Part shown: positions 818 through 41,096 of the stretch, piece by piece | Layout of the letters: each line of letters opens with the position of its first letter | Numbering within the stretch: the stretch's first letter is position 1 | NCBI RefSeq assembly: GCF_964355755.1 | Contig: NC_092674.1 | Location: forward strand, 191,001 to 255,000 | Length of the DNA stretch: 64,000 nt | Direction of reading: 5' to 3' | Source: Antedon mediterranea | Taxonomy: Eukaryota; Echinodermata; Crinoidea; Comatulida; Antedonidae | Made by a program: the position numbers and the translations under genes | Notes under the pieces: generated by a model | Database searches by the model: none | What the model saw: only the letters and a program-made list of their open reading frames with translations | What the model was told of the DNA's origin: nothing

Positions 818-3800
818 TTACATTATGTGTTGTTTGGTAAAGGCTTCCAAACCTGGGAATATTCACCCACTTATGCAATAAGATCATATGCATACATTCT
901 GCTACATTCCTTACCTGGACACCTGCACTCACTTTTACTTCAAGCCAATAGGGTAAGCAAATCACAACTTTTAAGCAAGATATTTGGTTATAAGTAATTG
1001 TAATTAAATTCAAATGTTTATATAAGTTATAAATTGTCAACTGGTTTTATTATTTTTTTATACTAAATATTTGAATTGTAACTTTCTTCTCTTTTTTATG
1101 TTTCTGTTGAATAGGTTTTAGTATTTTATTTTATTCGATGTGTTTTGGGAATGATTTGTGCATTGTGTGAGGTGTATTTTTACCGGTAAGTGGATTATAT
1201 TTTTTATATTTCAACATTCAATTGGTTCAAAATAAATAAAAAAGAATTGTTAACTATTAATTTTAAAAAACAATGAAGTAAATTAAATAATCAAAGTCAG
1301 TGAAATAATGCTGTACTATTCACCCCTTTAAATGAGGCTTTAAATAATAATGTTGTACTATTCACCCCTTTAAATGAGGCTTTAAATAATAATGTTGTAC
1401 TATTCACCCCTTTAAATGAGGCTTTAAATAATAATGCTGTACTATTCACCCCTTTAAATGAGGCTTTAAATAATAATGTTGTACTATTCACGCCTTTAAA
1501 TGAGGCTTTAAATAATAATGTTGTACTATTCACCCTTTTAAATGAGGCTTTAAATAATAATGTTGTACTATTCACCCCTTTAAATGAGGCTTTAAATAAT
1601 AATGCTGTACTATTCACCCCTTTAAATGAGGCTTTAAATAATAATGTTGTACTATTCACCCCTTTAAATGAGGCTTTAAATAATAATGTTGTACTATTCA
1701 CCCCTATAATGAGGCTTTAAATAATAATGTTGTACTATTCACCCCTTTAAATGAGGCTTTAAATAATAATGCTGTACTATTCACCCCTTTAAATGAGGCT
1801 TTAAATAATAATGTTGTACTATTCACCCCTTTAAATGAGGCTTTAAATAATAATGTTGTACTATTCACCCCTTTAAATGAGGCTTTAAATAATAATGTTG
1901 TACTATACACCCCTTTAAATGAGGCTTTAAATAATAATGCTGTACTATTCACCCCTTTAAATGAGGCTTTAAATAATAATGTTGTACTATTCACCCCTTT
2001 AAATGAGGCTTTAAATAATAATGTTGTACTATTCACCCCTATAATGAGGCTTTAAATAATAATGTTGTACTATTCACCCCTTTAAATGAGGCTTTAAATA
2101 ATAATGCTGTACTATTCACCCCTTTAAATGAGGCTTTAAATAATAATGTTGTACTATTCACCCCTTTAAATGAGGCTTTAAATAATAATGTTGTACTATT
2201 CACCCCTTTAAATGAGGCTTTAAATAATAATGTTGTACTATTCACCCCTTTAAATGAGGCTTTAAATAATAATGTTGTACTATTCACCCCTTTAAATGAG
2301 GCTTTAAATAATAATGCTGTACTATTCACCCCTTTAAATGAGGCTTTAAATAATAATGTTGTACTATTCACCCCTTTAAATGAGGCTTTAAATAATAATG
2401 TTGTACTATTCACCCCTTTAAATGAGGCTTTAAATAATAATGTTGTACTATTCACCCCTTTAAATGAGGCTTTAAATAATAATGTTGTACTATTCACCCC
2501 TTTAAATGAGGCTTTAAATAATAATGTTGTACTACTACTATTCACCCCTTTAAATGAGGCTTTAAATAATAATGTTGTACTATTCACCCCTTTAAATGAG
2601 GCTTTAAATAATAATGTTGTACTATTCACCCCTTTAAATGAGGCTTTAAATAATAATGTTGTACTATTCACCCCTTTAAATGAGGCTTTAAATAATAATG
2701 TTGTACTATTCACCCCTTTAAATGAGGCTTTAAATAATAATGTTGTACTATTCACCCCTTTAAATGAGGCCTTAAATAATAATGTTGTACTATTCACCCC
2801 TTTAAATGAGGCTTTAAATAATAATGTTGTACTATTCACCCCTTTAAATGAGGCTTTAAATAATAATGTACTATTCACCCCTTTAAATGAGGCTTTAAAT
2901 AAAACCATTTTATGTATGTATTTTGGAAGTATCATTTTATTTTCAATTGTTAATATGTTTATGGAATGTCTGTATTTTAGGGGTGTTTGTAAAGCATTTG
3001 GTGCAAATATTGGCAGATTTGCTCTGTTATTTCTTTTGTTAAGTACGGGAATGTTTATTTCAAGTACTGGTAGGTTCCTATTCAATTCTAATTTAATTAT
3101 TTGATATTGATGATAAACTTTATTTCAGCAATATAAAAGCCATATAATTTTAATAGCAAAAACATCATTGAAATACACACACAAAAAGTTGAGCCTCAAA
3201 TATTGTTAGCTGTACTGATGGCCAGTTTTCTAGTTTGTTTGTACCATCTCTCACAATGTTTTTCTATAATATTCATAAAATGGCACTGCAACTTCATGTG
3301 AGTAATTGGCCCAAAGGTTACTATAATATGGTACCATAGACACAGAATACACTACTTATCTTCTTCTTTGAAGTGAAAGTTAAAGATATTTTGTAATTCA
3401 TAATTTTTACTATGAATTTGTTGATCATGTGACAATAAAAATATCTTGTACAACAAAATTGAGTAATAGTTTTTATTTTCAGCATTTATACCTAGTAGCT
3501 TCTCAATGTTTCATTTTCAGCATTTATACCTAGTAGCTTCTCAATGTTTCATTTTCAGCATTTATACCTAGTAGCTTCTCAATGTATATGACTATGATAT
3601 CAATTGGTGGATGGTTTTTGGGCAATATTCCGGTAAGCAAAAATCTATTTTGCTATAAGATTTCTCATTTTAATTTACAATTAAATTTTAAAAAAGCATA
3701 GAGATACTGTATTATAGTGAACTATTCACTATAATATCTCTATGATTTGAGGAACTATTACTTGTTTCTTTTTTAGGTTGCGATATTAGCAACAGCATTG

Positions 3801-40000: not shown

Positions 40001-41096
40001 TTGTTGTTTATTTTATATCTGGTAAATACAGAATATATTGTGTTTTGTTATCTGGTTTTATTTTTATCTATATAAAGTTGTTTGTGAACTCAAAATATTA
40101 ACACAATATATTGTTTAACACAGGGAATGATAGTCATGGAGTTATTGGCCCTCTACCAATATCATCTGAAAATGGACCTTCTGGCCCACTCGAGTGAGTT
40201 CATATTCTTTTGAATATATGTTTAATGTTAACGTTTTTTTTTTTTTAATTAGTCATTTCTTTAATTATATATATACGGTATATCACTTTGATAAACATAT
40301 TTAAAAAAAAAACATATGATTTTTTTATGTTTTGTACTATAGTTATGGTAAGGCTCTGCTGCCTGGTGATGGAAGAAATTATTTAAAAGTCAATAATTTA
40401 TTTAATTATATATATAATTATATATCACTATATTTTGTACTATAGTTATGGTAAGGCTTTGCTGCCTGGTGATGGAAGAAATTATTTAAAAGTCAATAAT
40501 TTATTTAATTATATATATAATTATATATCACTATATTTTGTACTATAGTTATGGTAAGGCTTTGCTTCCTGGTGAAGGTGCTGCAATGGCAGCTTACGTG
40601 GAAGCTGGAATGCGTATTCCTCGTCGTGGTGAGATTGGTTTAACAAGTACAGAGATTGAAGTGTTTGAAGAAGCTGGTTTTGTTATGAGTGGAAGCAGGT
40701 ACATAATTTTAACATTTCTAAAAGTTCTTCATCAAACTTACCAACACCTTTCTGTAAATGTTTATTTTTATGGACAGATTTCCATTTGATTTTCTGAAAC
40801 AGAGTTGAGTATTAGCCCATTTCAGCCGTGCTAATGATCGGAACAATTGTAGCATTATATCTATGAGGAATATCTTATCAAAATGTTATTGAAATAAATA
40901 TAATTATATAATATTTTTCCTTGGCAGACATCGTCGAATGGAAGCTGTACGTATCAGGAAAGAAAATCAAATTTATAGTGCTGACGAGAAACGTGCACTT
41001 GCATCATTTAGCAAAGAAGAACGAACAAAGCGAGAAGGAAAGATTTTAAGGGATTTCAGAGAGATGGTGCATAGGAAAACCAAAGACAAGAAATGA
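37008..41096 (+). CDS. NKAP: NKAP, NF-kappa-B-activating protein (eight coding exons)
   Basis: Known role: a nuclear RNA-binding protein of splicing speckles that acts in splicing, transcriptional repression and chromosome alignment. Exons: 37008-37459, 37726-37806, 39404-39468, 39558-39609, 39829-39944, 40124-40193, 40549-40698, 40928-41096 (TGA). The phases join to 384 aa (human 415). The first ~150 residues are an RS-rich, highly charged tail ([20 protein letters not shown]). The middle is lysine/serine-rich ([15 protein letters not shown]). The C-terminal SynMuv-like domain is diagnostic: [56 protein letters not shown] and [18 protein letters not shown]. The start ATG follows an acceptor at 37006, so an untranslated upstream exon is expected. 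Exon 1's donor is duplicated, exon 7's acceptor is triplicated and intron 2 is a satellite, yet the frame is intact. Confidence 0.96.
37460..37580 (+). repeat. 57-bp tandem duplication at the NKAP exon 1 donor
   Basis: The donor region gtaagtatagcatgatatca starts at 37460 and again at 37517, with a third, partial copy ending near 37575. The second donor follows aagaaa instead of the true exon end. Reading through the first donor stops at once (AAG TAA). Confidence 0.88.
37807..39376. repeat. 67-bp tandem repeat array (about 23 copies) filling NKAP intron 2
   Basis: The unit gtgtgatcctttccatctc … gtttaagcagtttaattaaa repeats from the donor almost to the acceptor. The first unit begins inside the donor itself (gtaagtgtgtgatcc), so the donor +4 onward is repeat sequence. 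Copies differ at a few positions (ggttgt/gcttgc). About 30 bp of unique sequence remains before exon 3. Confidence 0.95.
40327..40582 (+). repeat. Triplicated acceptor and exon start at NKAP exon 7 (103-bp unit)
   Basis: The acceptor tttgtactatag and the first exon bases (ttatggtaaggct) occur three times, with exon starts at 40343, 40446 and 40549, exactly 103 bp apart. The third continues into the conserved [10 protein letters not shown] sequence and is the functional one. Copies one and two read GDGRNYLK and then hit a stop at the next tatag. Confidence 0.93.

Follow-up and report, generated by a model that had tools for sequence, protein, structure and literature searches.

Work on amphioxus has shown that some genes carry tandem duplications across their exon-intron boundaries, and these structures have been named mirages (PMC3087553), a name credited to Canestro 2002 (PMC117041). 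Mirages are described in the amphioxus Adh3 gene, in the globin genes BflGb6 and BflGb9, in troponin C and in PGBD5 (PMC3087553, PMC3902484), and those of Adh and troponin C are reported to occur without aberrant mRNA (PMC3902484). The amphioxus globin paper calls their origin unclear (PMC3087553). Minisatellites at exon-intron boundaries have also been reported to alter intron structure in human genes of segmental duplications, with 27 intron modifications kept after inspection (PMC2812944). The amphioxus cases and this one human study are the boundary minisatellites found in the open-licence literature, among the matches listed.

Here we describe six tandem arrays across exon edges of the ALG9 and NKAP genes in a 64,000-nucleotide stretch of the genome of the crinoid Antedon mediterranea (the window; positions 191001-255000 of contig C5). 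In anatomy these arrays are mirages, and the phenomenon is already known, also outside lancelets (human, PMC2812944). They are probably mirage-type minisatellites, formed by local tandem duplication without regard to gene structure and later expanded. The window is notable for its many arrays, not for arrays that prefer edges.

Tandem arrays across exon edges of ALG9 and NKAP

Tandem Repeats Finder (TRF) detected arrays that straddle the edges of exons 4, 8, 11 and 13 in ALG9 and of exons 1 and 7 in NKAP, which confirmed all six sites at which the initial annotation of this DNA had listed tandem units bearing splice sites. That sequence observation was correct in its main part and is partly confirmed. 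The TRF match between array copies is 93-100 percent and lies beyond chance repetition, and full copies are zero to two bases off the first copy in the five arrays compared (38, 56, 46, 57 and 103 bp). Each copy of the 38-bp array is one base off the first copy, and the six copies of the 46-bp array are all identical. The units had been thought to start or end on a splice site. Instead they span it, and only the exon 8 and exon 11 units end close to the junction (at +8 and +6). The exonic share of the unit is 5, 26, 57, 71, 86 and 87 percent in the six arrays. Most periods, as had been stated, are not divisible by 3; among the six main periods only 57 is, and the array at exon 13 is read here as 58 bp followed by 49/48 bp.

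An all-against-all blastn comparison of 45 units (E up to 1e-3) found the edge sites of the window to be unrelated to each other. The only matches joined units of one locus, the two halves of an array that the window edge cuts, and the members of the inverted array pairs at 50-62 kb. The claim that unit sequences are unrelated between sites is thus confirmed, which indicates a process and not one repeat family. A decayed duplication had also been proposed at ALG9 exon 6. There, the last part of intron 5 resembles the first part of exon 6 in a single local match of 20 versus 23 bases, whose score of 26 was equalled or exceeded in 0.25 percent of 2000 mononucleotide shuffles; a 57-bp unit was not recovered. 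This similarity is weak, and the supposed decayed copy appears doubtful.

The arrays are very unlikely to be assembly artefacts in which reads were collapsed or wrongly expanded. An aberrantly assembled mirage is reported for amphioxus BflGb6 (PMC3087553), but the copies seen here can be told apart by point differences (those of the 56-bp and 38-bp arrays are examples), and arrays recur in unrelated loci. In amphioxus PGBD5, moreover, the repeats are described as confirmed by independent reads (PMC3902484).

When the outermost splice sites are used, ALG9 yields an open frame of 519 amino acids (Glyco_transf_22, E 5.8e-106) and NKAP one of 384 amino acids (Nkap_C domain, E 9.5e-47). The ALG9 product (query residues 2-513) aligns to the solved ALG9 chain 9s6s_A and is gap-free at the four array junctions; the sole gap in this alignment is one residue, 4 residues beyond the exon 8/9 junction. 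The frame begins at residue 98 of the solved chain, suggesting that one or more N-terminal exons lie upstream of the window, and exon numbers used here are counted within the window only.

We altered one edge at a time and found that all 21 decoy choices tested produce an early stop. These comprise 16 decoys at ALG9 donors (6/6 truncating at exon 8, 5/5 at exon 11 and 5/5 at exon 13), the two decoy acceptors of ALG9 exon 4 at 3483 and 3521 (2/2), and three decoys in NKAP (1/1 at exon 1 and 2/2 at exon 7). Full-length ALG9 and NKAP were obtained only with the outermost sites among the splice choices tested. The earlier statement that clear decoys lead to a stop is therefore upheld. The earlier remark that frame is kept by the first donor or the last acceptor also holds, but it follows from geometry, since once a segment has been duplicated in tandem, the outermost copy is the only one that adjoins the complete exon body. 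For the proteins to be made, both genes would have to be spliced past many equally strong decoys.

The exon 8 array contains six decoy donors whose nine donor bases are identical to those of the used site, and the exon 11 decoys also keep the nine donor bases of theirs. Among the five exon 13 decoy donors, by comparison, three are GC and not GT. Decoys might be kept for function, for example to tune expression through unproductive splicing, a proposal that draws on the truncation caused by every choice tested and on the donor bases retained at exons 8 and 11. We consider such a role highly improbable, because recent expansion explains the high identity of the copies and three of the exon 13 decoys lack GT. 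A run of six decoy donors spaced 56 nt apart, or of three consecutive acceptors, offers a ready-made test of how an exon edge is chosen.

Position of arrays relative to exon edges

The initial annotation had proposed a local process that duplicates around exon-intron junctions. Because the window was picked for this feature, a fair test of edge preference is given by a sample of other genes in the same genome (354 Mb in 18 contigs; the 11 sampled contigs are 22-41 Mb each and the other seven about 0.9 Mb together). Sample genes were chosen blind to repeats, through exon matches to the AAA_6 and DHC_N2 domains of dynein and to the kinesin domain. We listed 327 exon matches (94 AAA_6, 139 kinesin and 94 DHC_N2) and used 314, the 13 excluded being 6 kinesin matches, 1 overlapping AAA_6 match and 6 DHC_N2 matches, 5 of them in the second copy of one dynein. 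Two dynein heavy-chain genes lie about 0.38 Mb apart on C1, at 2.21 and 2.60 Mb (loci L008, L009 and L074), and L008 and L009 are 93 percent identical over 2.4 kb. Edge counts exclude L009 as well as L020, the ALG9 upstream locus, leaving 76 loci and 252,876 bases. The sample introns are the 231 gaps between neighbouring exon matches. Arrays were accepted at a TRF period of at least 25, an identity of at least 90 and at least 1.9 copies, and those at or near edges were read by eye.

For the null model, each array was collapsed to one unit, a unit of the same length was placed at random but touching an intron, and the probability that it spans an edge was calculated, either gene-wide or in the array's own (local) intron. 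This represents a position-blind process combined with the loss of frame-breaking copies inside exons. Once arrays are collapsed, the mean intron is about 270 bp in ALG9 and about 180 bp in NKAP, and because introns are short, edges are often hit by a random duplication of about 50 bp.

The sample contained four edge-spanning arrays among 15, each confirmed by reading the sequence, compared with an expectation of 2.15 (gene-wide) to 3.8 (own intron; P 0.16 and 0.57). Within the window, 6/10 arrays span an edge versus an expected 3.9 (gene-wide) to 4.5 (own intron; P 0.14 and 0.24). Edges were hit at 4/462 in the sample and at 6/42 in ALG9 and NKAP. Across the ten edge-spanning arrays of window and sample, the exonic share of the unit is compatible with a uniform distribution (KS P 0.93, n=10, which excludes only strong departures), and one period in ten is divisible by 3, no clear departure from one third (P 0.10). 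A narrower null on 102 well-resolved introns gave 2/9 arrays at edges versus 1.7 expected (P 0.55), but it missed arrays with poorly resolvable edges. Looser thresholds gave 19 and 47 arrays, with 4 at edges versus 3.4 and 5.1 expected; the added arrays were assumed to be intronic without edge reading, and these counts were given no weight. Genome-wide, pairs of strong donor motifs 20-50 bases apart numbered 210 versus 1684 for the reversed pattern, a weak test in which a few long arrays yield many pairs in motif and control alike and the first places listed (C1-C4) amount to 10 clusters.

Several points weigh against an origin blind to position. The pooled counts, 10/25 arrays at edges, exceed the gene-wide expectation of 6.0 (P 0.046), although they do not clearly exceed the own-intron expectation of 8.3 (P 0.28), and they include a window selected for this feature. 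An array that abuts the exon in NKAP intron 2, absent from the list in the initial annotation, lowers the pooled P values to 0.016 and 0.146 and those of the window to 0.039 and 0.077 if it is counted as an edge case. An edge preference of up to about twofold is compatible with the pooled counts. The sample comprises 15 arrays only, and the basis throughout is the DNA sequence of one genome assembly. Possible unmapped exons in some sample introns lower the expectation and thus bias toward enrichment.

These counts bear on the idea that duplication prefers junctions, for instance through breaks at splice sites tied to transcription or R-loops. In its favour, six of the ten window arrays span an edge, a seventh abuts one, and the pooled gene-wide comparison is nominally significant. 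The sample alone, however, has no clear excess, the pooled local-intron null is unremarkable, the exonic share of units looks uniform, and donor-motif pairs are rarer than reversed pairs. We therefore judge junction preference unlikely, and junction targeting as a candidate process was unsupported after the collapsed-intron null. The proposed comparison of edge arrays with random positions, made on the 231 sampled introns, revealed no clear enrichment. Together, these results partly support the earlier interpretation: independent duplications of unrelated sequence are upheld, and targeting to junctions is not.

Local tandem duplication blind to gene structure could account for the arrays in four steps. 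A break or a replication slip would produce a tandem duplication of 30-100 bp, sometimes with filler at the seam; filler or microhomology is seen at some sites. Copies inside exons would be purged by selection because they break the frame, and intronic or edge-straddling copies would survive, the latter because their outermost splice site continues to flank an undamaged exon. Unequal exchange or slippage may then enlarge the array, to about 400 near-identical copies, as copy number and identity suggest. Finally, splicing would choose the sites next to the exon, in keeping with exon definition; this seems probable because only those sites give the protein. Purely intronic arrays are present in the same genes as the edge arrays. 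Duplicated splice-site arrays can thus arise without targeting, and introns can grow by absorbing copies of exon ends.

Table 1. Gene models, tandem arrays and related features of the window, with the sampled loci that carry edge-spanning arrays.
Feature	Position	Strand	Detail
ALG9 gene model	818..24597	+	15 exons inside window, stop included
ALG9 exons 1-8	818-952, 1115-1185, 2981-3069, 3559-3632, 3777-3838, 19933-20020, 20165-20270, 20456-20544	+	
ALG9 exons 9-15	21052-21171, 21481-21552, 21968-22097, 22500-22647, 23329-23458, 23827-23957, 24482-24597	+	stop included in last exon
NKAP gene model	37007..41096	+	8 exons
NKAP exons	37007-37459, 37726-37806, 39404-39468, 39558-39609, 39829-39944, 40124-40193, 40549-40698, 40928-41096	+	
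38-bp x3.0 array, ALG9 exon 4 acceptor	3471..3585	+	used acceptor before 3559; ~27 bp exon per unit
56-bp x7.1 array, ALG9 exon 8 donor	20497..20894	+	used donor after 20544; unit 48 bp exon + 8 bp intron
46-bp x6.0 array, ALG9 exon 11 donor	22058..22334	+	used donor after 22097; unit 40 bp exon + 6 bp intron
58 then 49/48-bp array, ALG9 exon 13 donor	23426..23763	+	used donor after 23458
57-bp x2.1 array, NKAP exon 1 donor	37457..37574	+	used donor after 37459; 3 bp exon per unit
103-bp x2.4 array, NKAP exon 7 acceptor	40326..40575	+	used acceptor before 40549
42-bp x38 intronic array, ALG9	1304..2902	+	away from edges
39-bp x~400 array (15.6 kb), ALG9 intron 5	3893..19527	+	away from edges
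69-bp x8.9 intronic array, ALG9	22710..23316	+	stops 12 bp short of exon 13
67-bp x23 array, nearly fills NKAP intron 2	37809..39379	+	begins at +3 of donor; adjoins exon without including any
Weak similarity, ALG9 intron 5 end (19878-19900) and exon 6 start (19933-19952)	19878..19952	+	
Dynein, L011	C2:40.84 Mb		acceptor array 77 bp and donor array 50 bp
Kinesin, L027	C5:31.79 Mb		acceptor array 70 bp
Kinesin, L047	C7:0.44 Mb		acceptor array 50 bp

Array seams, chromosome ends and other repeats

The seams of some arrays hold hints of how the duplications may start. The 77-bp unit of the sampled dynein locus L011 (C2:40.845 Mb, L011:566-780) combines a 60-bp target that spans the acceptor with 17 nt, AACCCTAACCCTAACCC. 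This insert is a telomere-like (AACCCT)n run present at both seams; the first copy has it only behind and the last copy only before, as if telomere-like repeats had been set between two target copies which then multiplied. We take TTAGGG to be the telomere repeat of this animal. No other (CCCTAA)2 or (TTAGGG)2 run was found in the 355,730 bases scanned. The 103-bp unit at NKAP exon 7 is composed of 44 bp found in every copy and 59 bp found only between copies. The 59-bp piece resembles the intron just upstream (score 39, equalled or exceeded in 0.1 percent of 2000 mononucleotide shuffles), which is modest evidence given AT-rich DNA and a mononucleotide shuffle. Seam microhomology of 6 bp occurs at ALG9 exon 8, where AACTTT opens the unit and recurs after the last one, and of 4 bp at NKAP exon 1, where AAAG does the same; the seams of the 38-bp and 46-bp arrays have microhomology of one base only.

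Taken together, these seams would be compatible with repair of a break, or slippage, and subsequent expansion. Insertion of telomeric repeats at repaired breaks, sometimes with duplication of the target site, is described in primates (PMC2246262). Boundary minisatellites might by analogy be seeded by double-strand-break repair, with telomeric repeats or local DNA filling the seam and telomere-like seams marking their birth, a proposal that we offer tentatively and think rather doubtful. The telomere-like seam is still a concrete lead on array origin. Were such seeding real, exon-edge arrays with many equal decoys would constitute a common natural test of exon definition versus scanning.

We also considered whether minisatellites form mainly near chromosome ends, with the window being simply one such zone. 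The window lies at 0.19-0.26 Mb of C5, and the other edge loci are at 40.84 of 40.92 Mb on C2, at 31.79 of 31.90 Mb on C5 and at 0.44 Mb on C7. Counting 58 genes, with two test myosin genes included and the window excluded, arrays were borne by 3/6 genes within 0.6 Mb of a contig end versus 5/52 further in (Fisher 0.029); cut-offs of 1 Mb (3/7 versus 5/51, 0.048) and 2 Mb (4/10 versus 4/48, 0.024) gave similar contrasts. This idea, however, arose after the data had been seen. The two myosin genes, at 0.18-0.21 Mb and fetched as a test, had no qualifying array, and 1.2-kb probes found arrays in 1/10 places near ends versus 2/10 inside chromosomes, or 4/10 inside when two arrays with 83-87 percent identity are counted as well. 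Contig ends were moreover taken as chromosome ends, and three contig ends were read, of which one lacked telomeric sequence and the other two gave N. A chromosome-end bias is therefore suggestive at most, two follow-up tests having failed to support it, and we regard it as possible without favouring it.

Other repeats lie in the window. An ALG9 intron holds a candidate SINE-like stretch at 21610-21850, with an apparent tRNA-type promoter box judged by eye. Tandem dimers or trimers of a 21-bp unit occur at 27300-27349 and at many other loci, with a related consensus near GTGATATGCCCAAATATGGTA or its complement; loci sharing this consensus include L002, L010, L033, L041, L046, L049, L075, L076, L077, L082 and others. 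Two 101-bp arrays in opposite orientation (50135-52272 and 56310-56981), about 4 kb apart and more than 90 percent complementary, look like a fold-back element with arms made of tandem repeats. A second inverted pair (58679-59339 and 61890-62374) has units of 154/153 bp that are about 87 percent alike, with about 2.5 kb between the arrays.

Two further observations concern gene families elsewhere in the genome. Nineteen matches to one stretch of the myosin head (~342-408) at 19.6-25.1 Mb of C3 suggest a large cluster of myosin heavy-chain genes. Exon matches to sialyltransferase (PF00777) number at least 150 on many contigs (142/221 candidates scored) and form local clusters, for example on C7, C9 and C3. 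Searches of the genome for GFP and connexin, which lacked a positive control, yielded no match, innexin yielded two that barely passed the cut-off, and mitochondrial COX1 was not found; given how the GFP, connexin, innexin and sialyltransferase families are distributed, this pattern leans toward a deuterostome outside the chordates.

Comparison with known systems

The six window arrays and the four sampled ones have units that span a boundary and contain a splice signal, and both boundary types are affected, with five arrays at donors and five at acceptors. In these respects they are like amphioxus mirages, which are described as tandem units of 10-160 bp across 5' or 3' boundaries with duplicated splice signals. 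The repeats of amphioxus PGBD5 are likewise reported to adjoin a splice site (PMC3902484). In contrast to the amphioxus cases, the genes affected here are ALG9, with four arrays in one gene, NKAP, a dynein and two kinesins, and one array has telomere-like seams. Splicing and length instability are reported as demonstrated for amphioxus mirages, whereas the crinoid arrays are known from the sequence of a single assembly.

Minisatellite copies also sit at exon-intron boundaries in the human study (PMC2812944). The genes described there are recent paralogs, and in some cases cryptic splice sites gave rise to new introns. In the crinoid, it is an existing edge that was copied, in conserved genes that look single-copy. 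Intron gain by tandem genomic duplication, the Rogers model as reported in potato (PMC4974935) and Drosophila (PMC2891723), similarly involves a short duplication with splice signals. That process creates a new intron position, whereas in the crinoid both the edge that is copied and the intron that is lengthened existed before. Introners resemble these arrays in being intron-scale sequence changes that recur in many genes, but they are described as copies of one element (PMC9860276), and our 45-unit blastn comparison found no sequence family shared by many introns, the units of different sites being unrelated. Finally, interstitial telomeric sequences are reported, as one outcome among those known from primates, to place telomere-like repeats between target copies (PMC2246262), as in L011. 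Unlike those insertions, the L011 duplication, a single case here, then expanded in tandem and lies across an acceptor.

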